Source: an uncultured Paracoccaceae bacterium (lineage in GTDB: Bacteria; Pseudomonadota; Alphaproteobacteria; Rhodobacterales; Rhodobacteraceae). From it: a stretch of DNA of 64,000 nucleotides. The stretch spans positions 124,001 through 188,000 of the forward strand of contig CANNFU010000007.1 of assembly GCA_947503965.1 (NCBI GenBank), read 5' to 3'. Below the pieces are notes generated by a model. That model had not been told where the DNA came from and did not search any database. It saw only the letters and a list, made by a program, of their open reading frames with translations. The translations under genes were made by a program, and so were the position numbers. Positions 500 through 15,033 of this stretch are shown here, in pieces; the first letter of the stretch is position 1; every line of letters starts with the position of its first letter.

Positions 500-1456
500 T
501 TATAGCCCGAGCTTTGATGCCTCTGAATACATTCCGACGACTATGTTCATGTCGCGCGTCATCACCAGTGACCCATTGAACATGATTGATCGCATTTCTT
601 CGTCTATCGCCTGGCCTGTAAGGACCCGATCGACAACTGTCTTGATTTCAGTCCAATCTGCGATGACAACGTCAAGCCCGTCGCTGATTTGTTCACTTGG
701 CGGCGCTTTGATACCGACATCTGCCATACCGTTGCGTAGCGCCATTAGCGAGACCTCGAACATCTCTTTCGTGGCGGCAAGCTCTGCTAAGGCGGTGTCT
801 TGATTGACCCCGGAACTGATCAGGCAGACGTTCTTTGACATGCGTTGCGATAGCATGCGTTGTCGTCCGGCAATATCGATCACAAGGGCGTCGGATTGCA
901 GCAACGCGGTTGGGTCAGAATATTGCCCGGACAATTCGCTGACCAGCATCTTTGCCATCTCTAACAGCGGTGCGCTCTGGTCTGCCAGCAGCTTGACTGT
1001 TTCGACGGACGTGTCACCGGCAGCAATCAACTGCGCTGTCGCATTGGTCGGGTCCCAAAGCTCGCGTAGTTTTCTGATCCCAACCTGCGTTCTGCGTCGC
1101 TCTTCTGCGCCAATGATCCCCAATTCGGCATCACCAAATTCCAGCGCGTCAATGATCCTTTGAAACTCATCACTGGTGGCACTCAAGACTGCACCACTTC
1201 TTTCTGGATCTATCCCGGCGGAATAGTTGCAGCCTGCAGCGACGATCCGTTGACTTAACATGCGCAGCTTGCCGGAAAAGTCGATGCGTTGGCTGGCACC
1301 GATATCTTCGACGAACTGTGTTTGATGCAGCAACGATGCTGTTTCTGGCGCGGTCTGAGCCTGAAGGGGTGAACACATGATGCCGAAGCTGAACATCGCT
1401 GTCGTGATTTGTTTGAAAAAGCCCTCAAAAGGTGGGGTTGTACTCGTAACTGGCAT
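500..1456 (-). CDS. Secreted two-domain PilJ-N-type (type IV pili chemotaxis transducer N-terminal) protein
   Basis: A 318-residue protein with an N-terminal export signal ending near LQAQ (about residue 34). Two similar helical domains follow, each opening with a PilJ-N-like motif: GKLRMLSQRI near residue 62 and GRQRMLSQRM near residue 197. Each motif helix ends in a cysteine (VAAGC and SKNVC); these are the only two cysteines in the mature chain. In PilJ/NarX-type sensors this domain is a periplasmic ligand-binding four-helix unit joined to a membrane and signalling part. Here no transmembrane, kinase, HAMP or methyl-accepting region follows, so the protein appears to be a free periplasmic sensor or binding protein. 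It is a paralogue of the gene at 1835-3301. The ligand is unknown. Confidence 0.75.
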   Translation of the reverse strand: MPVTSTTPPFEGFFKQITTAMFSFGIMCSPLQAQTAPETASLLHQTQFVEDIGASQRIDFSGKLRMLSQRIVAAGCNYSAGIDPERSGAVLSATSDEFQRIIDALEFGDAELGIIGAEERRRTQVGIRKLRELWDPTNATAQLIAAGDTSVETVKLLADQSAPLLEMAKMLVSELSGQYSDPTALLQSDALVIDIAGRQRMLSQRMSKNVCLISSGVNQDTALAELAATKEMFEVSLMALRNGMADVGIKAPPSEQISDGLDVVIADWTEIKTVVDRVLTGQAIDEEMRSIMFNGSLVMTRDMNIVVGMYSEASKLGL

Positions 1457-1834
1457 GGCTGTCCTACAAATGCTTCAGCAACACTCGCTGAAAACTACGT
1501 TTAACTTTTTACACTCTGACAGCGGCCCCCATGCGTGCACTGTCGAATGATACTTACCGGTCGCCAAGGTTATGACGACCACAGCGTGTATTCTACGACG
1601 CTACCCTTTATTAAAAGGGACTGGTGGCATTTTTAGCAAGCTAAATAAGGGTTTAGAGAGATTGACCTTTCCTTAAGTTGAGGTTGACTGATCTTAAGGG
1701 GTGACTATCGCCGCGCTTTTTCTGCTTAAAGGTGAGCATTGCAGATAGGCCGAGATGAATTGAAGCCGCTTCCAAAAGAAAGGTCCGCAAATTGCTTTGC
1801 GGACCTTCATATCGACATTCTTGGTAAATGGAGC
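1457..1834. other. Intergenic region between the two PilJ-N genes
   Basis: No coding sequence is credible here. It holds the terminator of the upstream gene (1774-1807) and an inverted repeat CCTTAAG (1671-1677) / CTTAAGG (1693-1699) about 215 bases ahead of the next start. The region is AT-richer than its surroundings and probably contains the promoter of the 500-1456 gene. The two paralogues are therefore likely separate transcription units. Confidence 0.5.
1774..1807 (-). terminator. Rho-independent terminator after the 1835-3301 gene
   Basis: A perfect 12-bp stem, 1780-1791 with 1796-1807, closes a four-base loop. On the minus strand it is followed by TCTTTT. It begins 27 bases after the stop codon at 1835. 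Confidence 0.85.
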
Positions 1835-3301
1835 TTACATCAGGTTTTGGACATTGATCCCAAACGTGATGGCACCGATCACTTCTCCGCTCGCAGGATC
1901 CTTGATCGCGATTGATGCTTGCGATTGATAAAAACCGGTACTGTCGTCAAACTCGACATCGCTGATATGCAGCGCGTCAGGACCGACCTGATAGGTTTGC
2001 TGCCACTTTGCTTCGTCGCCCTGCCAGTAGTCAGACGTCTCAACGCTTTGGGCGACGTTCAGACCTTTGTCATCCATGACAAAGACCTCGGTGACGAAAC
2101 CGGCTGTTGCCGTCTGCTGACCGCGCAGCCACGCCGAAACGGGATGTGCAAGCAGCTCCGATATCAGCGGCCCGCCGCCATTGCCTGCTTCGGCCCGCCA
2201 TTGCTGGTCAAGAGCGATGACTTCATCCTCTGAAAGCCCCGCATGGCGGTCGTTTTGAACTTTGATCGCCTCGATCAATGCCGGGTCTTCCAGCCACTTG
2301 GACAACTCACCGCGTGCATACGCCTCAAGCGGGACACGGTAGACACCATCCTGGCCGGGGGTCGCGATCAGATAGAGCGTGATCGCGTTGTTCATGCCAA
2401 CCGAAAGACTTTTCGCCAAAGCGGCCGCAGCAATGACATCCTCTGCGCTTGGTTGCTGCCCTGAAAGGGCCGCATCGAACAGACTGCGCTGGCTTTCCCA
2501 TAGATCAAACGTGTCGTTCAGGCTTGCCTTGACCGCGTCATTTGGTGGCGGATTGATGCCCGCATCAGGAAAACCGTCGCGCAATGCGATCAGGGTGCGT
2601 TCAAAAAGATCGACCGTTTCGGCCAGTTGGTCAGAGATGCCGCCGTTTCCGGTTCCGCTGGCAAGTTCGCACATCGCAAGCGTCATACCGTAGGCCAAAG
2701 CGCGCTGGCGCACCGCAAAGTTCAAAACAGTTGCGTCGCTTTGCAACAATTCCTGCGGATCTGAATACTGCCCAGATACATCTGCCGCCAAGACGACAGT
2801 CTGCTCAAAAAGATCTGAATAAGACGCACTGATCATCGCGGCATCCGCATCAGAGGATGCACCATCCAGCATACGGCTGGTGGCTGCCTCGATGGGTTGC
2901 CACAAGTCCGCCGTCGCTCTGATCGCCGTCAGTGTCCGAGGACGGCTTTCCGCGCCAGGCATGCCCAAGGCATTGTCGCCATTTTCAAGCCCGGTCAGGA
3001 TCGCCTGAAAATCGTCGCGTGCCGATAGCAGGTCTGCAGCAGCCGTTTCCGCGTCTATTCCAGCGTCAAGCCGACAACTGGCCGATGCGATGGACTGTGT
3101 CAGCGTACGCAAGCTTGCAGATCTGTTTACGCGGGCCTTGCCGCCGTCATAAAGTGATCGGTCGATAAACTGGGCCTCAACTGTGGTTGGGACAGTCGCT
3201 GTGCCAACCAGCGCGCCCAGCCCCATGACTGCGGCGCAGGCCGTGGTTGTCAGCCGGGCTTTGTGGCTGAGAAGTTTTGTTGCGGATGTGCCGTGTGACA
3301 T
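1835..3301 (-). CDS. Secreted PilJ-N-type two-domain protein with C-terminal Cache-like domain
   Basis: A 488-residue protein with a long export signal (cleavage probably after TVEA near residue 43). Two PilJ-N-like helical domains line up with the neighbouring 318-residue protein, for example AGIDAETAAADLLSARDDF against AGIDPERSGAVLSATSDEF, and SGQYSDPQELLQSDA against SGQYSDPTALLQSDA. The LSQR motifs have decayed (LRTLTQSI, RQRALAYGM), but the cysteine after each is kept (ASASC, LAMC). Residues from about 385 to the end (TEVFVMDDKGLNVAQS ... GEVIGAITFGINVQNLM) look like a small Cache-type sensor fold. There is no cytoplasmic output domain. The role may be periplasmic ligand sensing or binding; the partner is unknown. 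Confidence 0.72.
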   Translation of the reverse strand: MSHGTSATKLLSHKARLTTTACAAVMGLGALVGTATVPTTVEAQFIDRSLYDGGKARVNRSASLRTLTQSIASASCRLDAGIDAETAAADLLSARDDFQAILTGLENGDNALGMPGAESRPRTLTAIRATADLWQPIEAATSRMLDGASSDADAAMISASYSDLFEQTVVLAADVSGQYSDPQELLQSDATVLNFAVRQRALAYGMTLAMCELASGTGNGGISDQLAETVDLFERTLIALRDGFPDAGINPPPNDAVKASLNDTFDLWESQRSLFDAALSGQQPSAEDVIAAAALAKSLSVGMNNAITLYLIATPGQDGVYRVPLEAYARGELSKWLEDPALIEAIKVQNDRHAGLSEDEVIALDQQWRAEAGNGGGPLISELLAHPVSAWLRGQQTATAGFVTEVFVMDDKGLNVAQSVETSDYWQGDEAKWQQTYQVGPDALHISDVEFDDSTGFYQSQASIAIKDPASGEVIGAITFGINVQNLM

Positions 3302-3491: not shown

Positions 3492-5084
3492 TCAGGCATT
3501 GGGGGACTGGATCCAGACCTCCACCCGGCGGTTGATCCGACGTTCATTGTCGGAGGTGTTACAGGCTGCCGGGGCGATTTCTCCAAATCCAGTGCTGGAC
3601 ATTTCGATCCCGCTGAGCCGACTTCCGGCAAAGTCCTGCAATTCGGTCATGACCTTTTCAGCGCGACCGAAGGAAATCTCGCGATTGCTGTCAAAGGCGC
3701 CGACATCGTCGGTGAAACCGACGAACATAACCCGGGTTCCGGCTGGTTGGCCTTCAAGATAGTCGGCAAGGCGTGCCAAGTTCAGCCGCCCGCGGGGATT
3801 AAGGTTCTGCGATCCGGTGCGGAAGCGGAATGTTGTCGACAAACGATCATAATCCACCATTTGTGCTAGCATCTCGCGCATGATGCCGCCCTCGTAGGCG
3901 TCAACCGAAGGATCCAGCAACTGGCGTGCCCGATCCCCATCCAGCGACTGTGGGCGACGATCCACGCCGAGATCAATGAACCCTGCCTTCGCGATGACTT
4001 CGTCGGCCTGCTCGGATGCGGCAAAGCTTACGAAATCCGATGTGGCTTGATCCAGCGTATCGTCGCGGTTGTAGAGGTACAAGAAACGCTGCAATGCGTA
4101 TTCTTCTGTCCGGGCTGAGAAAGCATCGGGCGTCATGCTGATGCCGCAATCGTTGATCAGCGTCAGTGCGCTCGCGCCGCGTTGGAAGGCGTAACCCACA
4201 AAACCGATGGCGGTCTCATCAGCATTGACGCGCGCTGCCATCTCTGTGTTGTCATTCGCGATCTGGGTGCCAGCGGGAAGTGCTGGGGCCTCGTCGCCAA
4301 ATACACCATTGATAAAGACACCTGTGGTGCCCGAGTCTGCCTGACGGCTCAATACTGTGATTGGTGCATCAACGCCGCCCAGTTCGGACCAATTTGTGAT
4401 CGTGCCACTATAGATGCCGCGCAATTGATCCATGGTGATCGCACGAACCGGATTAGCCGGATGGGTGATGACGACAAGACTGTCGACGGCAATGATATGT
4501 TCCTGCGATGTGCTGATCATGTTGCCTGCACCGTCGTCGCGCAGCGCGCGCGCTTCGGTTGGCAGAATGCGGCGGGCAGACATCCCGATTTGGGCCGTTT
4601 GATCCAACAGCGCCTGGAAAGCGTCGCTAGAGCCTGAAGAGGTCACGAGATATGAGCCCATGGGGTCGCCGAAACCTTCATCACCGATCATCTCTGCCAG
4701 AAAAGCACCACTGTTTCCGGTGGCGGTCTGCGTCACTTCAGCGCCAAGGAACGCCGCATACCCAGACAACAGCAAAGGCATCACACCGTCACCGACAGTG
4801 TCAGAACCTGCCATGATGACATCAGCTTCGGTGTTATTGAAATCAGGACAGGCTGCACCTTCACAACGGACACGCGATGCCGAAATCCGCAGGTCGCCAA
4901 GACCTGTGCGGATGACATAGTTGTTGTCGGTAAACTCAACAAAGTCACCGACAAGATTTACAGTACCATCTGCCGATTTCAGTGTGACCTCGGCTGAATG
5001 TGCGGCCAATGGCCCGAGCAAGGCAACGCCCAATGCGACAGCGGATACCAAATTCTGTTTCAGGGGGGCGATTTTAAATGCCAT
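3492..5084 (-). CDS. Secreted phosphate-binding-protein-like / OmpA fusion
   Basis: 530 residues. A signal peptide ends at about residue 30 (LAAHSA). A short beta-rich segment (32-80) precedes a PstS-like type II periplasmic binding domain (about 85-370), recognisable from VMAGSDTVGDGVMP, VVITHPANPVRAITM, GIYSGTITNWSELGG and SRQADSGTTGVF. The C-terminus (about 410-528) is an OmpA/MotB peptidoglycan-binding domain with GFTDDVGAFDSNREISFGRA and ERRINRRVEVWI. PstS-like domains bind phosphate or related anions for ABC import; the OmpA part would tether this one to the cell wall, so a scavenging, sensing or storage role is more likely than feeding a permease. No pst transporter genes are nearby. 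It lies just upstream of the two PilJ-N genes, in the same direction. Confidence 0.85.
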   Translation of the reverse strand: MAFKIAPLKQNLVSAVALGVALLGPLAAHSAEVTLKSADGTVNLVGDFVEFTDNNYVIRTGLGDLRISASRVRCEGAACPDFNNTEADVIMAGSDTVGDGVMPLLLSGYAAFLGAEVTQTATGNSGAFLAEMIGDEGFGDPMGSYLVTSSGSSDAFQALLDQTAQIGMSARRILPTEARALRDDGAGNMISTSQEHIIAVDSLVVITHPANPVRAITMDQLRGIYSGTITNWSELGGVDAPITVLSRQADSGTTGVFINGVFGDEAPALPAGTQIANDNTEMAARVNADETAIGFVGYAFQRGASALTLINDCGISMTPDAFSARTEEYALQRFLYLYNRDDTLDQATSDFVSFAASEQADEVIAKAGFIDLGVDRRPQSLDGDRARQLLDPSVDAYEGGIMREMLAQMVDYDRLSTTFRFRTGSQNLNPRGRLNLARLADYLEGQPAGTRVMFVGFTDDVGAFDSNREISFGRAEKVMTELQDFAGSRLSGIEMSSTGFGEIAPAACNTSDNERRINRRVEVWIQSPNA

Positions 5085-5676: not shown

Positions 5677-6756
5677 TTACTGCGGAATTTCCGACGTCAG
5701 ACCTTCGACATAGAAATCCATGCCGGCCAGTGTGCCGTCATCGGCCACTTCGCCATCGGCCAGCCAGACGGAACCGTCCTGCTTGTTCAGCGGCCCAGTG
5801 AAGGGGTGGTATTCGCCATTACGCATCGCTTCGATCATGGCTTCGGCGCTGGCCTTCACCTCGGCAGGAACCGCATCGGTGATTTCACCAATTTCGACCA
5901 TGCCGGGTGCAATCCCGTCCCATGTGTCGGTGCTTTCCCATGTGCCATCAATGACAGCCTGCGTGCGGGCGATATAGTAGGGCGCCCAGTTGTCGATGAT
6001 GGAGGACACGCGCGGGAATGGTCCGAACTCGGCCATGTCAGAGGCCTGACCGAAGGTCACGACATTGCCCGCCTCCTGCGCGGCGGCCTGAGGCGCGGTG
6101 GAATCCGTATGCTGCAGGATCACGTCAGCGCCCTGTTCGATCAGGACGGTTGCGGCTTCGGCCTCTTTCGCGGGGTCGAACCAGGTGTAGGCCCAGACGA
6201 TCTTGAATTCGACGTCAGGGTTCACTTCTGCCGCGTGAATATAAGCTGCGTTGATGCCCCGGATCACTTCGGGGATCGGGAAGGACGCGATGTAGCCGAT
6301 GATGTTGCTTTCAGTCATATGCCCGGCAATGTGGCCCTGCACGGCGCGCCCTTCATAGAACCGCGCGGAATAGGTCGATACGTTATCGGCGCGTTTGTAG
6401 CCGGTGGCGTGTTCGAATTTCACGTCAGGGAATTTTTCGGCTACGGCGATTGTCTGGTCCATGTACCCGAATGACGTCGTGAAGATCAGGTCGGCCCCTT
6501 GCAGCGCCATCTGGGTCATGACCCGTTCCGCATCGGCCCCTTCCGGTACGCTTTCGACGAACACGGTTTCAACCGCGTCACCGAAATGTTCCTCGACCGC
6601 AAGCCGCCCCTGATCGTGCTCATAGGTCCAGCCGCCATCGCCGACCGGGCCCACATAAACAAAACCGACCGTGGTTGGTTCATGCCCGTCCGCAAAGGCC
6701 CCTGTTGCCATGCCAACCGCGAGCGTCGCGCTGGCCAGTAGTTTTTTCGTTGTCAT
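5677..6756 (-). CDS. BMP-family ABC transporter substrate-binding protein
   Basis: A 359-residue exported binding protein: signal peptide MTTKKLLASATLAVGMATGAFA, then the BMP/Med-family start TTVGFVYVGPVGDGGWTYEH. BMP proteins feed nucleosides or purine-type ligands to ABC importers. The ATG at 6756 is chosen over a longer in-frame start at 7029 because it has AAGGGG upstream and gives a clean signal peptide; the longer version would run into the permease gene. It is the last gene of the operon that begins with xdhA, 28 bases after the permease. A purine base, or a nucleoside yielding xanthine or hypoxanthine, is the inferred ligand. Confidence 0.9.
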   Translation of the reverse strand: MTTKKLLASATLAVGMATGAFADGHEPTTVGFVYVGPVGDGGWTYEHDQGRLAVEEHFGDAVETVFVESVPEGADAERVMTQMALQGADLIFTTSFGYMDQTIAVAEKFPDVKFEHATGYKRADNVSTYSARFYEGRAVQGHIAGHMTESNIIGYIASFPIPEVIRGINAAYIHAAEVNPDVEFKIVWAYTWFDPAKEAEAATVLIEQGADVILQHTDSTAPQAAAQEAGNVVTFGQASDMAEFGPFPRVSSIIDNWAPYYIARTQAVIDGTWESTDTWDGIAPGMVEIGEITDAVPAEVKASAEAMIEAMRNGEYHPFTGPLNKQDGSVWLADGEVADDGTLAGMDFYVEGLTSEIPQ

Positions 6757-6784
6757 TTGTTTCCCCTTGGTGGTCTGAATTGCC

Positions 6785-7699
6785 TCAACGTGAGGCGTGG
6801 AATGATTGGCCGAGCGATCCCGGCGCACGTCCGGCCCGCATAATAACCAGAACGGCGATGGTGGCCAGATAGGGCGCCATGGAAAGATAGGCGACCCCGA
6901 TCGCGGCCCCGGCTGCTTGCAGGTTAAGCTGGAGCACAGTGACCCCGCCGAACAAATAGGCACCCAGCAAAAGCCGCCAGGGCCGCCAGCTTGCGAAGAC
7001 CACGATGGCCAGGGCGATCCAGCCTGCACCGGCGGTCATGCCTTCGGTCCATTGTGGCACGCGCACAAGACTTAAATATGCCCCACCCAGCCCCGCACAG
7101 GCGCCGCCAAACATGATTGCCAGCAGGCGGACGCGGATCACGTGATAACCCAACGCATGCGCGGCCTCGTGATTTTCACCCACGGCACGCAGGACCAAAC
7201 CTGCGCGTGAATACTTCAGGAAAGCCCAGACCGCGGCGACCAAGAAGATGCCGACATAGACCATCGGATCATGTTGAAACACGATGGGGCCAATGACGGG
7301 GATATCGCTTAGCAGCGGAACATCCCAATCCGGAAATGCCGGCGCCTTGATCCCGATATAGCCTTGCCCCATTAAGGCCGACAGACCGAGCCCAAACAGG
7401 GTCAGCGCCAGTCCCGTTGCAACCTGGTTGGACAAAAGCAATTGAGTCAGGACGCCGAAAAGCAGCGACAAGATCGCCCCGCCAATCGCCGCTCCTATGA
7501 ACCCGAGCCATGGCGATCCGGTATTCACAGCCACAATGAACCCGCAGATGGCGCCGGTGATCATCATCCCCTCAACCCCAAGGTTCAGCACGCCAGCCCG
7601 CTCTACGACCAGTTCACCTATTGCGGCCAGCATGATCGGGGTCGCGGCCACCATGAGAGAGGCGACAAGAAGGACCGGATTGATCGATGACAGGTCCAT
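6785..7699 (-). CDS. BMP-system ABC transporter permease (NupQ/YufQ type)
   Basis: 304 residues with about eight to nine membrane helices. The segment ERAGVLNLGVEGMMITGA near residue 35 is the characteristic BPD_transp_2 motif of permeases paired with BMP binding proteins. The AVGENHEAAHALGYHVIRVR segment is the predicted coupling loop to the ATPase. Its ATG shares one base with the stop codon of the preceding 101-residue gene (TGATG). It would form a heterodimer with the permease at 8001-9080. Confidence 0.9.
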   Translation of the reverse strand: MDLSSINPVLLVASLMVAATPIMLAAIGELVVERAGVLNLGVEGMMITGAICGFIVAVNTGSPWLGFIGAAIGGAILSLLFGVLTQLLLSNQVATGLALTLFGLGLSALMGQGYIGIKAPAFPDWDVPLLSDIPVIGPIVFQHDPMVYVGIFLVAAVWAFLKYSRAGLVLRAVGENHEAAHALGYHVIRVRLLAIMFGGACAGLGGAYLSLVRVPQWTEGMTAGAGWIALAIVVFASWRPWRLLLGAYLFGGVTVLQLNLQAAGAAIGVAYLSMAPYLATIAVLVIMRAGRAPGSLGQSFHASR

Positions 7700-8004
7700 C
7701 AGATCGATATTCCGTGAAGTACCAAGTGCACTGCGGCCGCAACGACAAGCGCGCTACCAAGCATAGAGACCAGATGGCTTGTGGTTGGCCTGTGTATGCG
7801 GTTGATCCATGCCTGAATTCCGGGTGAAAGCCGCGTCGCGAAAGCCGCCGCCGCGATCAGCACGAATGCCAGTAACAGATGCGCCCCGATGAAAGCGACC
7901 GGCCCGACAATTGACGCTTCGTTCCGAAGCTGGCCATGCAACATCCACAGGGCCATCAGACCCATTGCAGCGCCCATCATCAGCGGCTTGTATGCAACCT
8001 TCAT
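7699..8004 (-). CDS. Unrecognised small membrane protein inside the importer operon
   Basis: 101 residues, not recognised. Hydrophobic segments at about 6-24, 33-58 and 79-98 suggest three membrane helices, with a short positively charged stretch (INRIHRPTTSH) between the second and third. The start overlaps the stop of the upstream permease by four bases (ATGA) and is preceded by GGGAGGGA. Its stop overlaps the start of the downstream permease by one base. This strict coupling suggests its product is made with the transporter subunits and may be an accessory subunit. Known nucleoside importers of this family have only binding protein, ATPase and two permeases. Conservation was not tested. 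Confidence 0.75.
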   Translation of the reverse strand: MKVAYKPLMMGAAMGLMALWMLHGQLRNEASIVGPVAFIGAHLLLAFVLIAAAAFATRLSPGIQAWINRIHRPTTSHLVSMLGSALVVAAAVHLVLHGISI

Positions 8005-9080
8005 GTCAGTCCCTCCCGCTTTAGGCGTATGCGATAATTCGTAAGAACATCTACGGCGAGAAGGAAGAACAACAACATCCCTTGCAACAACTGGATCGCG
8101 GCCCCCGGCAGGCCAAGGTTCGATTGTGCGATCTCACCACCGATATAGGTTAGCGCCATCAACCCCGCCGCCAGCACGATGCCGACAGGATGTAACCGGC
8201 CCAAGAAGGCGACGATAATGGCTGTAAACCCATAGCCAACATTGAAATTGATGCTGACCTGGCTTGCTGGACCTGCAACTTCGAATAGGCCGGCAAGCCC
8301 GGCCAAGGCACCCGATAGCCCCATGCAGATCAGGATCAGTCGGGCCGGATTTACACCGGCGAACTTGGCCGCACGCGGGCTTTGCCCGGACAGCCGCACC
8401 TGAAATCCAAAGATATGGCGCGACAGCGCGATATAGGCGAAAATCACGGCGATAAAGGCAAAGACGACGCCCCAATGCATGCCAGCACTTTCATTGATCC
8501 AACTGGTGGCGCTTGGATATTGTGTCAGGTTGCGCGAGCCGGGCATGCCCACACCATCCGGATTGCGCATCGCACCTAACGCCATCGACGATAAAAGCTG
8601 TTCGGCGACATAGACCAGCATCAGGGACACAAGGATCTCATTGGTCCCGAACTTCACCCGGAGAAAACCGGGGATCATGGCCCAGGCCCAGCCGCCAAGG
8701 GCCCCTGCGATCACCATCAGCGGAAAGATGATGAAAGACTCAGTGGGGTAGAAGGCCAGCCCAACAGCCGCGCCACACAGCGCACCGATGATATATTGCC
8801 CTTCGGCCCCGATATTCCAGATGCCCGCGCGAAACCCGAATGACAGGCCGATGGCGATCAACACCAGCGGCGCGCCCTTGATCAGGATTTGCGGACGATA
8901 GAACCAAGCGAACTCCGAAAACAGCGGGTCGAGAAAGATCGTGCGGATCGTCTCAAACGGGTTGTTGCCAAGTGCGGCGAACAATACGCCGCCGAAGATC
9001 ATGGTCAAAACCACCGCCAGCACCGGCGTCGCAAAGGTCCAGACCCGCGATGGCTGCGGGCGTTTCTCAAGCAGAATCAT
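8001..9080 (-). CDS. BMP-system ABC transporter permease (NupP/YufP type)
   Basis: 359 residues beginning MILLEKRPQPSRVW, with a cytoplasmic N-terminus and then about nine membrane helices. The motif FGFRAGIWNIGAEGQYIIGA near residue 80 is typical of the longer of the two BMP-system permeases. The start at 9080 is preferred over one at 9107 because GGAGG lies six bases upstream. It overlaps the 3' end of the ATPase gene by 14 bases and the next gene by four, so it is translationally coupled on both sides. Confidence 0.9.
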   Translation of the reverse strand: MILLEKRPQPSRVWTFATPVLAVVLTMIFGGVLFAALGNNPFETIRTIFLDPLFSEFAWFYRPQILIKGAPLVLIAIGLSFGFRAGIWNIGAEGQYIIGALCGAAVGLAFYPTESFIIFPLMVIAGALGGWAWAMIPGFLRVKFGTNEILVSLMLVYVAEQLLSSMALGAMRNPDGVGMPGSRNLTQYPSATSWINESAGMHWGVVFAFIAVIFAYIALSRHIFGFQVRLSGQSPRAAKFAGVNPARLILICMGLSGALAGLAGLFEVAGPASQVSINFNVGYGFTAIIVAFLGRLHPVGIVLAAGLMALTYIGGEIAQSNLGLPGAAIQLLQGMLLFFLLAVDVLTNYRIRLKREGLT

Positions 9081-10590
9081 GCGCCACCTCCATATCATGG
9101 GCACCACCCAGCATCAGGCCAATCTCGTCCACCGTCAGCCCGCGCGCCGGGCGGGGTGCAGACAAGCGCCCTTCGTTCAGCGCCGCGAACCGGTCAGATA
9201 TTTCCATCAACTCATCAAGGTCCTGACTGATGCAGATCACCGCTGCGCCTTTGCTCGCTAAATCCAGTAAGGCCTGCCGGATCGCTGCGGCGGCGGAGGC
9301 ATCAACACCCCATGTGGGCTGGTTCACCACCAGAACCTCTGGGTCCTGCATAATCTCGCGTCCGATGACGAATTTCTGCAGGTTCCCGCCCGACAGCGAC
9401 CGGGCTGCGTTCTGTGGCCCGGGTGTGCGCACATCGAAAGCCTTGATCACCTGTTCTGCAAACCCGCGCGCCTTGGCCCAATGCAGGAATCCGCGGGTGG
9501 TCAGCCGTTGACGGGTCGTGGCCGTCATGATCGCATTTTCGGTCAGGCTCATATCCGGGGCCGCGGCATGGCCCATCCGCTCTTCCGGGGCGGCCAGCAG
9601 TCCGATTTCGCGACGCTCATTTGGACGCATCTGCCCGATCGCTTTGCCTTTGTAATGCAGCATATCCGCGCCTGTCGGCATCTCGCCCGACAGCGCCGCC
9701 ACCAGCTCATCCTGCCCATTCCCTGCGACACCACCGATGCCCAGCACCTCACCCTTGCGCACGTCCAATGAGATATTGCGCAAGCTGGTGCCAAACCGAT
9801 GCGGTGCTTTGGCACTGAGGTTTTTGAGCGAAAGAACGACATCACCCACATCACGCGCTGCTTTCTCGGGCACATGCAGGGTGCTGCCGACCATCAATTC
9901 CGCCATATCGCGGGCGGATGTTGCACGTGGATCGCAAGTTGCGACAACTTCGCCCAAGCGCAGAACGGTCGCTGTTTCGCATAGCGCCCGGATTTCTTCG
10001 AGCTTGTGCGAGATATACAAGATCGCTGTGCCCTCCGCACTGAGCTTGCGCAATGTCTCAAACAGGATCGCGACCTCTTGCGGGGTCAGAACGGATGTGG
10101 GTTCATCCATGATCAAGAGCTTCGGGTCCTGCAAAAGGCAGCGGATGATCTCAACGCGCTGGCGTTCGCCAGCCGAGAGTTCACCCACAATGCGGGAGGG
10201 ATCGAGCGGCAGGCCGTATTGATCCGAAACAGCAAGCACCCGTGCCGCAATCTCGCTTTGGGCGGGCGGGTTTTCCATGCCCAGCGCGATGTTTTCCGCC
10301 ACATTCATCGCGTCAAAAAGCGAGAAATGCTGGAACACCATCGCAACCCCTGCCGCGCGCGCGGCGCGGGGTTCAGCGGGCTGGAACGGAGCCCCTTCGA
10401 GTGTCATTTTTCCGCTATCGGGTTTCACCAACCCGTAGATGGTTTTGACTAGCGTCGACTTGCCCGCACCGTTTTCGCCAAGCAGGGCATGAACCTCACC
10501 GCGTCCGATATCGAACGACACGTCCTTGTTGGCGATCACACCGGGATAGGCCTTGGTCAGCCCGGTCAGGCGCAAAAGCGGGTCGGTCAT
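9067..10590 (-). CDS. BMP-system ABC transporter ATP-binding protein (two ATPase domains)
   Basis: 507 residues with two fused nucleotide-binding domains. The first has Walker A GENGAGKST (38-46), signature LSAGERQRVEI and Walker B LLIMDEP. The second has a degenerate Walker A (GGVAGNGQDEL) and signature LSGGNLQKFVIG, as usual in the second half of ribose- and nucleoside-type ATPases. It energises the two permeases encoded downstream. Its start overlaps the xdhC stop by four bases, tying transport to xanthine dehydrogenase maturation. Confidence 0.95.
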   Translation of the reverse strand: MTDPLLRLTGLTKAYPGVIANKDVSFDIGRGEVHALLGENGAGKSTLVKTIYGLVKPDSGKMTLEGAPFQPAEPRAARAAGVAMVFQHFSLFDAMNVAENIALGMENPPAQSEIAARVLAVSDQYGLPLDPSRIVGELSAGERQRVEIIRCLLQDPKLLIMDEPTSVLTPQEVAILFETLRKLSAEGTAILYISHKLEEIRALCETATVLRLGEVVATCDPRATSARDMAELMVGSTLHVPEKAARDVGDVVLSLKNLSAKAPHRFGTSLRNISLDVRKGEVLGIGGVAGNGQDELVAALSGEMPTGADMLHYKGKAIGQMRPNERREIGLLAAPEERMGHAAAPDMSLTENAIMTATTRQRLTTRGFLHWAKARGFAEQVIKAFDVRTPGPQNAARSLSGGNLQKFVIGREIMQDPEVLVVNQPTWGVDASAAAAIRQALLDLASKGAAVICISQDLDELMEISDRFAALNEGRLSAPRPARGLTVDEIGLMLGGAHDMEVAHDSA

Positions 10591-11327
10591 GCCGTGCGGT
10601 CCTTTGTCCGGGCGTCAGTCCGGCTGATCATTGCGGTTGCCACGCCAAGCGCAAGGGCTGCAGGGTGTTTTCCGAAGGTCGGGTCGCCGATTGGACACGC
10701 GATGCGCGAAACATGTGCGGGGTCATGCCCCAATGCCGCGAGGCGCGTCTTGAACCGTGCCCATTTGGTGGCTGATCCGATCAATCCAGCGCCCGCAAAG
10801 GGGCGCGACAGGATCGCATGGCAGATCGCAAGGTCCAAGTCGTGGCTATAGGTCAGAATCAGATGCTCTGCATCATCAGGCGCGTGTTTGACGACGGCTG
10901 CGGGATCCTGGGCTACCAGCGTTGTCACGTCCGTTTCAGGAAAGCGATCTGCGCCGGTATCGACCCAAGTGATGTCAAAATCCGGCAAAGGCGCCATCAC
11001 ATTCACAATCGCGCGGCCCACATGCCCAGCCCCATAAATCCAAAGGGCGCGCGCAGGGGGGGCATCAAGTGCGTCTCCCTTTTCCCACAAAAGCGTTACC
11101 GCACCACCACAGCATTGGCCCAAACCGGGGCCAAGCGGGATACGTCGTGTCAGCGTCTCGCGACCCTCTGTGAGCATCTTGCGCGCTTCGGCAATCGCAT
11201 CCCATTCCAGCGCACCGCCGCCAATCGTGCCTGCGATACGGTCGGGCCAGACCAGCATCTGCGTGCCGGCGTCACGCGGGGCAGAGCCTGCGGTCTTAGT
11301 CACGGTGATGCGAATGGGTTTGCTCAT
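10587..11327 (-). CDS. xdhC: Xanthine dehydrogenase accessory protein XdhC
   Basis: 246 residues. XdhC proteins bind molybdenum cofactor, promote its sulfuration and deliver it to XdhB. The N-terminus carries the family motif GSAPRDAGTQMLVW followed by GTIGGGALEWDAI; the C-terminal half has the Rossmann-like LWIYGAGHVGRAIVNV and SHDLDLAICHAIL. The start overlaps the xdhB stop (ATGA). The position after xdhAB matches the R. capsulatus order xdhABC. Confidence 0.93.
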   Translation of the reverse strand: MSKPIRITVTKTAGSAPRDAGTQMLVWPDRIAGTIGGGALEWDAIAEARKMLTEGRETLTRRIPLGPGLGQCCGGAVTLLWEKGDALDAPPARALWIYGAGHVGRAIVNVMAPLPDFDITWVDTGADRFPETDVTTLVAQDPAAVVKHAPDDAEHLILTYSHDLDLAICHAILSRPFAGAGLIGSATKWARFKTRLAALGHDPAHVSRIACPIGDPTFGKHPAALALGVATAMISRTDARTKDRTA

Positions 11328-13681
11328 CCGCGTGCCCGCCCGACGGCCCGCAACACCTCTTCAGCGGTCGCGGGGGCCTGTAGATCGGGGTAGTTCGGCC
11401 CACAGGCGCTGATCGCGTCCGACAGCGCCAGAAAGGCAGAGGTTCCCAGCATGAATGGCGGCTCACCCACGGCCTTTGATCGATAGATTGTTTGCGCCGG
11501 GTTGGGCTGATCCCACAAAGCAACGTTGAATACATCCGGACGATCCGAACAGGCGGGGATTTTGTAGGTCGCGGGGGCATGGGTGCGCAGGCGGCCTTTG
11601 TCATCCCATACCAGTTCTTCGGTTGTCAGCCAGCCAGCGCCTTGCACATACCCACCCTCAACCTGTCCGATATCCAATGCGGGGTTCAGCGAAGCCCCGG
11701 CGTCGTGCAGGATATCCGTGCGTAGAATGCGGTTTTCACCTGTCAGCGTGTCAATCACGACTTCGGTCACAGCTGCCCCTTGGGCGAAATAGAAAAAGGG
11801 GCGGCCTTCGCCCTTGATCCGATCCCAATTCAAGTCGGGCGTTTTGTAAAACCCTGTCGCGGACAGGCTGACGCGGTTGGCATAGGCGGTCTGTGCGGCC
11901 TTGGTGAATGTCATCACCTCTGCGCCGACATGGACCTGACCGTCAGCGAACCGGACCTCTTCAATTCGGGTCTGATGCAGTTCTGCCAGACATGCGGCGA
12001 TCCGGTCGCGGATGATGTCGCAGGCATTGGCGACAGCCATCCCGTTCAGATCAGACCCTGATGACGCCGCTGTGGCCGATGTATTTGGCACTTTGCCTGT
12101 ATCCGTTGCAGTAATCTTGACCGCGCTGACATCAATCCCGAACCGATGCGCGGCAACCTGTGCGACCTTCTGGAACAACCCTTGCCCCATCTCGGTCCCG
12201 CCATGGTTCATATGCACCGATCCATCCTGATAAACATGCACCAGCGCCCCCGCCTGATTAAGGTGGGTCAGCGTGAACGAAATTCCGAACTTCACAGGAC
12301 TAAAGGCAATGCCCTTCTTCAGGATTGACTGGTCCGCGTTCCACGCCGCAATCGCCGCCCGGCGGGCGTGATAGTCGGAGGAGGCCAGCAAGGCATCCGT
12401 CATCTCGTGCAGAATGAAATCGGTGACGGGCATGGCATAGGGGGTGGTCTGGACCGTTGGTACGGGCGAGAATTCCCCGCCAAATCGCCGTCCGGTTCCC
12501 GGCTTTGTCTGCGCGGCATCGGCAGACGCAACCCGATCCATCGCCGCATAATAGTTCCGCTGACGTACCAATACTGGATCAAGATCCAACGCAGCGGCCA
12601 CATGGTCCATGACCCGTTCGATACCCAACACGCCTTGTGGCCCGCCAAACCCGCGAAAGGCTGTGGCGGATTGTGTATTGGTCTTTAACCTGTGTGAGGT
12701 GATCCGCACGGCGGGCAGGTGATACGCATTATCCGCGTGTAACATCGCCCGGTCAGCGACGGGCAGGGACAAATCCATCGCCCAGCCGCAGCGGGTCATT
12801 TGGGTTAAATCCACCCCAAGCAGGCGGCCCTCATCATCATACCCGACCCGATAGTCGATCCTGAAATCATGGCGCTTGCCGGTGATGATCATGTCATCAT
12901 CACGGTCATACCGCATCTTGCAGGGCTGGCCTGTCAGGCGCGCTGCGACAGCGCAGGCAACAGCCAGCGCGTTGCCCTGGCTTTCCTTACCACCAAAACC
13001 CCCACCCATCCGACGCACCTCGCACCGGACGGCATGCATGGGCAGGCCCAGTGCTTCAGCCACCTTATGCTGGATCTCGGTCGGGTGCTGGGTGGAGCTG
13101 TGCACCACCATATCCCCGCCTTCCTGCGGCAGGGCAAGGGCGGCCTGACCTTCCAGGTAGAAATGCTCTTGTCCGCCCATATTGATCGTACCTTGGACCT
13201 GATGCGGGGCGTCCGACAGGGTCTGATCGACATCGCCCTTGGTCCAGATGCGGGGGCCATCCTCAAACCGGCTATCCGATGCGAGCGCGTGTTCGATGGT
13301 CAGGATTGGCGTTTCTTCGCTGTGGTCGATCGTGGCCAGCCGGGCCGCTTTGCGGGCGTTCAGATGACTGTCCGCGACAACAAGGAACACTGGCTGACCC
13401 AGATAGTGAATAGTGCCATCGGATAAAAGCGGTTCGTCATGAGCAGAGGGTGAGACGTCATTGGCGAAGGGCAGGTCGTCTGCGGTCATGACAGCGACGA
13501 CCCCGAGGGCGCTTTTCACCTTTGCAAGATCCATGGCACGGATCGTGCCCTTTGCGATGTCGGATAGACCAAAGGCAAGGTGCAACGTCCCCGTTGGCGT
13601 CGGGATATCGTCGATGTAGCGCGCCGCACCGGTTACATGCAGGGCGGCGGCATCATGGGGCAGGGGTTTGGCGACACTCAT
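11324..13681 (-). CDS. xdhB: Xanthine dehydrogenase molybdopterin subunit XdhB
   Basis: 785 residues, close to the usual length. It binds the molybdopterin cofactor and hydroxylates hypoxanthine/xanthine to urate together with XdhA. Recognisable segments are [15 protein letters not shown] at the start, [35 protein letters not shown], and near the C-terminus [12 protein letters not shown], which holds the catalytic glutamate region. The start at 13681 is chosen because it begins with the family N-terminus and overlaps the xdhA stop by four bases; upstream in-frame residues are XdhA in another frame. Confidence 0.96.
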
Positions 13682-15033
13682 GCGCTGATCTCCAGCACGG
13701 ATGTCGCCTGACCGGAAAGTTCGGCGAAATAGCGGCGCAACAGGTTCTGCGCGGTCTGCAGCCGGTAGTCGGCCGAGGCACGCATATCGCTCATCGGTGT
13801 ATAGTCCGTGGCGAATTGTGCGGCGGCGGCGTCGATTGTCTCTTCCGTCCACGGCTGCCCAGTCAGTGCAGCCTCGACCGCCTTGGCCCGATGCGGTGTT
13901 CCCGCCATCCCGCCAAAAGCGATCCGAGCTGTCGTGACGACCCCGTCAACGACAGTCACATTAAAGCAGCCGCAGACAGCCGAGATATCCTGATCGAACC
14001 GTTTGGATACCTTGTAGCAACGCAGGGCAGGGGCTGTCTTGGGCAGTGTCACGCCTGTCACCAGCTCTCCGGGTGTGCGATCCTGTTTGCCATAGGCGAT
14101 GAAGAAATCCTCTAACGGCATGTCGCGTACCGTATCTGCGTGGCGCAGATGCAATGTCGCCCCCAGCGCAATCAACGCAGGCGGGTTATCCCCGATCGGA
14201 GAGCCATTGGCGATATTCCCGCCAATCGTCGCCGCATTGCGCACCTGGACCGACCCATAGCGCCGGATCATTTCGGCGTAGGATGGGTGATATTCACCCA
14301 CGACTGCCATCACTTCCGTCATCGTCGCGGCCGCGCCGATCCTGATTTCATCGTCGCCCACTGCAATCTCGCGCAGATCCTTGCAGCACCCCAGAAATGC
14401 GACCTGATTCAGATTTCGCAATTGCTTGGTAACCCACAAACCCACATCGGTTGCACCGGCGATCAAGGTCGCATCAGGATGGGCCGCATACCATGCGGCC
14501 AGTTCATCCAGATTTTCGGGCGCATAAGGCTGTGCTGAAACCTCGGGCGCTGCATCCTGCATCCAATCCGGTATCGGCGCGTCGGCTGCCGCCTCAGCCG
14601 CCCGCACAATTGGCGCATAGCCAGTGCAGCGACACAGGTTGCCAGCCAGCACATCATCATGATCTTTGCGTCCTTCTGAATGGCCTGCCGCCATCGACGC
14701 GATAAAGCCGGGCGTGCAGAAACCACATTGCGACCCATGATGCTCAATCATCGCCTGCTGAACCGGATGCAAGGTGCCGTCCGGTCCGCTGATCCCCTCG
14801 ACCGTACGCACGGTCTTTCCATGCAGTTGTGGCAGAAACAGAATGCAGGCATTCAGCGCTTTGACGCCATCCTTATCACCGACGACCACCGTGCATGCGC
14901 CACAATCGCCTTCGTTACAGCCCTCTTTTGTACCGCATAAGCCGCGATCAATGCGTAACCAGTCCAGCAAAGTCTGTGTGGGCTCTGCCTTAACCCGCAC
15001 GGTTTCCCCATTCAGAAGAAACGTCACATCCAT
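13678..15033 (-). CDS. xdhA: Xanthine dehydrogenase FeS/FAD subunit XdhA
   Basis: 451 residues joining two [2Fe-2S] domains (1-165) to a FAD-binding domain (about 180-450), as in the R. capsulatus small subunit. Cluster ligands are visible in [16 protein letters not shown] (35-49), then QCGFCTPGF and [11 protein letters not shown]; the FAD loop contains [17 protein letters not shown]. It passes electrons from XdhB to NAD+. The ATG at 15033 gives the standard beginning [12 protein letters not shown]; the 38 codons upstream are not family-like. It is the first gene of the operon. Confidence 0.96.

Follow-up and report, generated by a model that had tools for sequence, protein, structure and literature searches.

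PilJ domains have been described in membrane-bound chemoreceptors, kinases, cyclases, or regulators (PMC6381276), and the locus studied here raises the question of what two neighbouring PilJ proteins could do if they are exported from the cytoplasm with no output domain of their own. The window is the whole 64,000-nucleotide stretch of DNA that was analysed, taken from an uncultured Paracoccaceae bacterium, a marine roseobacter (contig CANNFU010000007.1, positions 124,001 to 188,000). The two proteins, P1 and P2, their domains and the gene next to them are as follows.

500..1456, minus strand: P1, predicted exported two-PilJ protein of 318 aa; Pfam PilJ in two stretches, E 1.4e-28; eight helices in the AlphaFold2 model
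920..1297, minus strand: P1 PilJ domain 1, residues 54-179; AlphaFold2 helices 54-79, 84-107, 121-145 and 151-179
512..898, minus strand: P1 PilJ domain 2, residues 187-315; AlphaFold2 helices 187-214, 219-242, 255-279 and 286-315; match to McpN 6gcv over 187-315, Z 17.3
1835..3301, minus strand: P2, predicted exported PilJ-PilJ-Cache protein of 488 aa; Pfam PilJ in two stretches, E 1.7e-20
2765..3142, minus strand: P2 PilJ domain 1, residues 54-179, with the decayed motif LRTLTQS (Pfam, AlphaFold2, motif scan)
2363..2743, minus strand: P2 PilJ domain 2, residues 187-313, with the decayed motif RQRALAY (Pfam, AlphaFold2, motif scan)
1838..2356, minus strand: P2 Cache/PDC sensor domain, residues 316-488, matching KinD, DctB and CitA; stand-alone PDC proteins are about 50% identical to it
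3492..5084, minus strand: PBP-OmpA, the likely partner, a PstS-like binding domain fused to an OmpA peptidoglycan-binding domain, 530 aa; PBP_like_2 E 2.6e-27, OmpA E 1.3e-08; conserved neighbour

Both open reading frames proposed in the earlier note were confirmed, and both lie on the minus strand. The cut-off of the Pfam PilJ profile (PF13675, 26.6 bits) was exceeded by P1 (99.7 bits) and by P2 (73.7 bits), while NIT (PF08376) was not among their Pfam matches at E up to 1. The N-termini of both proteins are signal-peptide-like and contain the sole hydrophobic stretch; sequence inspection found no later transmembrane segment and the Pfam search no output domain, in agreement with the earlier description of secreted proteins lacking an output domain, and export of both is predicted from these sequence features. 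Chance or artefact was ruled out, because the reading frames, the domains and the cysteines discussed below recur in more than 100 genes.

The earlier note had also given each protein two PilJ domains only, which holds for P1 and fails for P2. The P2 model carries a third domain at residues 316-488 whose closest folds were KinD (4jgq_B, Z 13.6 over 128 residues), DctB (Z 13.3) and CitA (Z 12.4), so that the two-domain-only reading of P2 was ruled out by the AlphaFold2 model and its structural matches, and Pfam MCP-like_PDC_1 gave 13.4 bits on the P2 C-terminus, below its cut-off of 27. The domain is predicted to share the fold of the Cache/PDC sensors KinD, DctB and CitA but differs from them in being exported and fused to PilJ domains, with stand-alone relatives that adjoin chemoreceptor (MCP) genes.

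The host genome contains six tandem-PilJ genes, two in the window, one on contig C3, one on C1 and two on C9, and at least one tandem-PilJ match was found in 60 of the 390 Rhodobacterales genomes searched; free exported proteins of this kind are thus not confined to P1 and P2. The relatives compared here comprise 118 distinct tandem proteins, a few of them the same gene with different ends, in a set that is biased, many of its members having been picked out by their relationship to P2 and the others by matching an alignment of P1/P2 relatives. No annotated tandem-PilJ relative was found in a plasmid collection, and a search of PHROGs gave no match. At one locus of Jannaschia pohangensis (L020:2180-8302), a PBP-OmpA gene is followed by four serial tandem-PilJ genes, the third of them Cache-fused, and the family is locally expanding there.

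Apart from the signal peptides, P1 and P2 were modelled by AlphaFold2 with confidence (pLDDT 87.8 and 86.9). The P1 model consists of two four-helix bundles with a linker of seven residues between them, and its best full-length structural match was the NIT domain of NasR (4akk_B; Z 18.7, rmsd 4.6, 257 residues), against which the P2 model gave Z 16.3, with the reservation that structural Z values for helical bundles can be inflated. The NasR NIT domain (4AKK) likewise has two four-helix bundles per chain in an overall arrangement similar to that predicted for P1, whereas NasR is cytoplasmic and ANTAR-fused and the proteins studied here are predicted to be exported and lack a NIT profile match. 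The ligand-binding domain of Pseudomonas aeruginosa PilJ (7ZJR, 8WDF) is homologous in sequence to the tandem across its two domains (E 3e-14), but it belongs to a membrane receptor, has a different bundle arrangement and lacks equivalent cysteines. Its structure 7zjr matched the P1 model one bundle at a time (129 residues; full-length rmsd 24.7), which disfavours a PilJ-like (HBM) arrangement of the tandem and agrees with the HBM-like fold described for that domain (PMC12632253). McpN (6GCV) has sequence homology and the bundle fold in common with P1 and P2, and its N-box recurs exactly in P1 domain 2, but McpN is a single-domain, membrane-bound homodimer with Leu at the position of the cysteine. 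Taken at the level of models, the tandem PilJ is predicted to be a side-by-side single-chain pseudo-dimer, similar to the NIT domain of NasR.

In McpN and NarX, the motif arginine is a nitrate-binding residue at the axis of the dimer (PMC6381276, PMC8199190), and the nitrate site of NasR has two arginines (PMC8199190). Nitrate-binding PilJ members carry the N-box [IVL][ND]xAGxQRML[ST]Q (PMC6381276), and a motif scan located two GxxR half-sites in P1.

1262..1273, minus strand: GxxR of P1 domain 1 (G62-R65), of the nitrate-site type (definition from PMC8199190 and PMC6381276)
857..868, minus strand: GxxR of P1 domain 2 (G197-R200), inside the exact N-box IDIAGRQRMLSQ (pattern from PMC6381276)

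The N-box is exact in P1 domain 2 only, domain 1 retaining GxxR with two N-box mismatches, and both GxxR and the N-box are absent from the two domains of P2. This bears out the earlier statement that LSQR has decayed in one paralogue, the motif being intact in P1 (LRMLSQR and RQRMLSQR) and decayed in P2. As a hypothesis drawn from these motifs, P1 may hold nitrate or another small oxyanion between its bundles; in P. aeruginosa, the tandem PilJ is not a nitrate-binding protein (PMC6381276). The host itself probably assimilates nitrate, given that nirB is present and NapA falls below its cut-off. A recurrent 443-aa neighbour was considered as a link to nitrate assimilation genes and ruled out, as it is trigger factor.

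The genomic surroundings bear on what the proteins might act with. PBP-OmpA is encoded directly upstream of P2 on the same strand, and 51 of the 118 tandem-PilJ genes have a PBP-OmpA gene no more than 3 kb away, on the same strand in all 51, upstream in some and downstream in others, with flanking genes that otherwise vary. A second PBP-OmpA/PilJ-PilJ pair is found on contig C3 of the host. The neighbour resembles PstS-family proteins in matching PBP_like_2 and the ptsS_2 model (150 bits, cut-off 206.6), but it is OmpA-fused, scores below the PstS cut-off and has about eight copies in the host genome. Besides 3492-5084, these PBP-OmpA-like genes are found on C3, C12, C18, C11 and C4; most of the copies lie away from PilJ genes, and a short N-terminal piece of PBP-OmpA also occurs alone in the genome. 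Further along the window, minus-strand genes at 5677-13852 read by eye as a BMP-type nucleoside ABC transporter and xanthine dehydrogenase cluster, a flank partly conserved in loci L012 and L032.

No receptor gene adjoins P1 and P2 in the window. The earlier note had proposed a search for a partner receptor elsewhere in the genome. A stand-alone Cache protein paired with a chemoreceptor is present on host contig C6 (locus L137; 46% identity to the P2 domain), and a likely partner, PBP-OmpA, is also next door. Stand-alone exported relatives of the P2 Cache domain are about 190 aa long with about 50% identity and in Ruegeria TM1040 carry the annotation 'PDC sensor domain-containing protein', and a same-strand MCP gene lies within 500 bases of the Cache homologue in 41 of 45 loci. 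Two of the four loci without it, L070 from an Inquilinus MAG and L066 from a bin labelled Acidimicrobiia, instead have a PilJ-PilJ gene within 40 bases, a pair that looks like an unfused form of P2. This exported protein is widespread (L137:5971-8301 on contig C6, and loci L037-L090), carries a TSDYWQGDEAKW-like motif and scores below Pfam cut-offs; together with the adjoining chemoreceptor gene it seems to form a sensor of two genes that is undescribed.

Histidine kinases enter the picture in three related genomes, where a two-cysteine PilJ-PilJ gene directly precedes a dCache-HAMP-PAS gene with overlapping reading frames (L154:1430-7549, L155:560-5450, L167:329-4501); the latter is a complete hybrid kinase in two of them and in the third ends at the edge of the fetched stretch. 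An ammonium transporter gene (amt) precedes PilJ-PilJ in L154 and L167, the two genomes in which that side is readable. At another locus (L194:2-4273), PBP-OmpA, tandem-PilJ and protoglobin-type chemoreceptor genes stand in a row on one strand, and this chemoreceptor was ruled out as a candidate periplasmic receptor by its protoglobin N-terminus. There is a precedent, as cited in PMC12632253, in a PstS-type protein that activates the chemoreceptor CtpL. The PBP-OmpA linkage, the Cache and MCP pairs and the strings of amt, PilJ-PilJ and kinase genes suggest an accessory sensor that resides in the periplasm and acts in trans.

The same surroundings could be read as scavenging or storage, with PBP-OmpA and the PilJ proteins holding a periplasmic anion for uptake and taking no part in signalling. 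A neighbour with a wall-anchored solute-binding-protein fold and the amt gene in the two related genomes would suit such a role, but a transporter permease is not conserved beside the pair in the neighbourhoods compared, PilJ and Cache domains are signalling domains elsewhere, and Cache homologues adjoin chemoreceptors, so that we consider scavenging unlikely, if the best placed of the alternatives. The cysteines of the two mature proteins are encoded as follows.

1229..1231, minus strand: codon of P1 Cys76, a residue kept in 105 of 118 relatives
824..826, minus strand: codon of P1 Cys211, a residue kept in 104 of 118 relatives
3074..3076, minus strand: codon of P2 Cys76
2669..2671, minus strand: codon of P2 Cys211

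C76 and C211 are the only cysteines of mature P1 and P2, one per PilJ domain as the earlier note had observed; the signal peptides carry C28 (P1) and C22 (P2). They did not prove variable among homologues: both are kept in 104 of the 118 relatives, far beyond chance, neither in 13 and a single one in 1 (L187, with C76 present and C211 absent), and both columns rank within the 15 most conserved of the alignment. Of the 104 two-cysteine relatives, 103 have no additional cysteine between position 50 and the C-terminus. A tree built without the two columns shows two changes at C76 and three at C211, so that the joint pattern, although real, reflects few independent events and is overstated by its Fisher p value. 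Each cysteine follows its motif arginine by 11 residues (R65-C76 and R200-C211), or three helical turns, which would place arginine and cysteine on nearly the same helix face. The pair is independent of the anion site, since all 35 Cache-fused proteins keep the cysteines and none of them has both GxxR half-sites, compared with 32 of the 83 others. Some relatives without either cysteine also neighbour PBP-OmpA, and the putative clamp is thus separable from the PBP-OmpA partnership.

The earlier suggestion of an inter-domain disulfide, or of a redox or ligand function, fares differently in its two parts. The disulfide gains indirect support from the equivalent repeat positions, the joint keeping and loss, the lack of other cysteines and the predicted NasR-like arrangement, in which equivalent first-helix residues would meet at the axis, the site of the putative C76-C211 bond. 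A disulfide between the bundles is probable. A redox or ligand role is less likely, as the cysteines stay where the GxxR anion motif is lost, and this sequence pattern speaks for a disulfide with a structural function rather than for ligand binding by the cysteines.

A reversible redox switch for periplasmic redox or nitrosative sensing, in place of a static clamp, would fit just two symmetric cysteines near a putative anion site that outlast the decay of its motif. The periplasm is oxidising and a lone cysteine pair there is normally a stable disulfide, which counts against a switch, as do the absence of a CxxC or thioredoxin-like feature and of any conserved redox gene in the neighbourhoods compared; we regard it as improbable. 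Still less credit is given to a covalent homodimer, in which the cysteines would join two molecules (C76-C76' and C211-C211', or crosswise): the NarX and McpN bundles do dimerise via helix 1 (PMC6381276, PMC8199190), but the intrachain pseudo-dimer of the predicted model would already fill that interface. A role as metal or cofactor ligands is very unlikely, for although the pair is near-invariant among variable neighbours, the most conserved columns contain no conserved His, Asp or Met partner and a heme motif is absent.

With the intrachain disulfide preferred, a mechanism can be outlined. The two PilJ bundles of each chain would lie next to each other and form a pseudo-dimer within the molecule, in the arrangement of the NasR NIT domain, mimicking the homodimeric nitrate site of NarX and McpN, and a C76-C211 disulfide at equivalent points of the first helices would clamp the bundle interface. 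P1, which keeps both half-sites, would probably bind a small oxyanion such as nitrate, and P2, having lost GxxR, could read its signal via the fused Cache domain. Both may work in a complex with the peptidoglycan-anchored, PstS-like PBP-OmpA and exert their effect in trans on a chemoreceptor or histidine kinase of the membrane. We give an even chance to this explanation as a whole, in which P1 and P2 serve as free sensor subunits in the periplasm without their own output domain, with the disulfide, the PBP-OmpA partner and the trans action included, and hold the architecture of the two proteins with greater confidence than that. More tentatively, they might belong to a three-part envelope sensing system of Rhodobacterales, in which PBP-OmpA passes a ligand or conformational signal to the clamped, NIT-like tandem-PilJ proteins, these diffuse to chemoreceptors or kinases and switch them, and Cache-fused forms integrate a second ligand; this extension remains doubtful.

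The domains and folds are known, and no paper describing the exported tandem-PilJ class or its link to PBP-OmpA was found in the literature searched; the exported class with its PBP-OmpA neighbour is an undescribed, widespread envelope module. If the explanation is true, the nitrate-sensor fold would also exist in a soluble form that is locked covalently, likely a single-chain counterpart of the NarX/McpN dimer, and marine roseobacters would gain a testable periplasmic relay, while the exported tandem-PilJ proteins may be easy to purify and so provide a model of the interface at which nitrate sensors dimerise.
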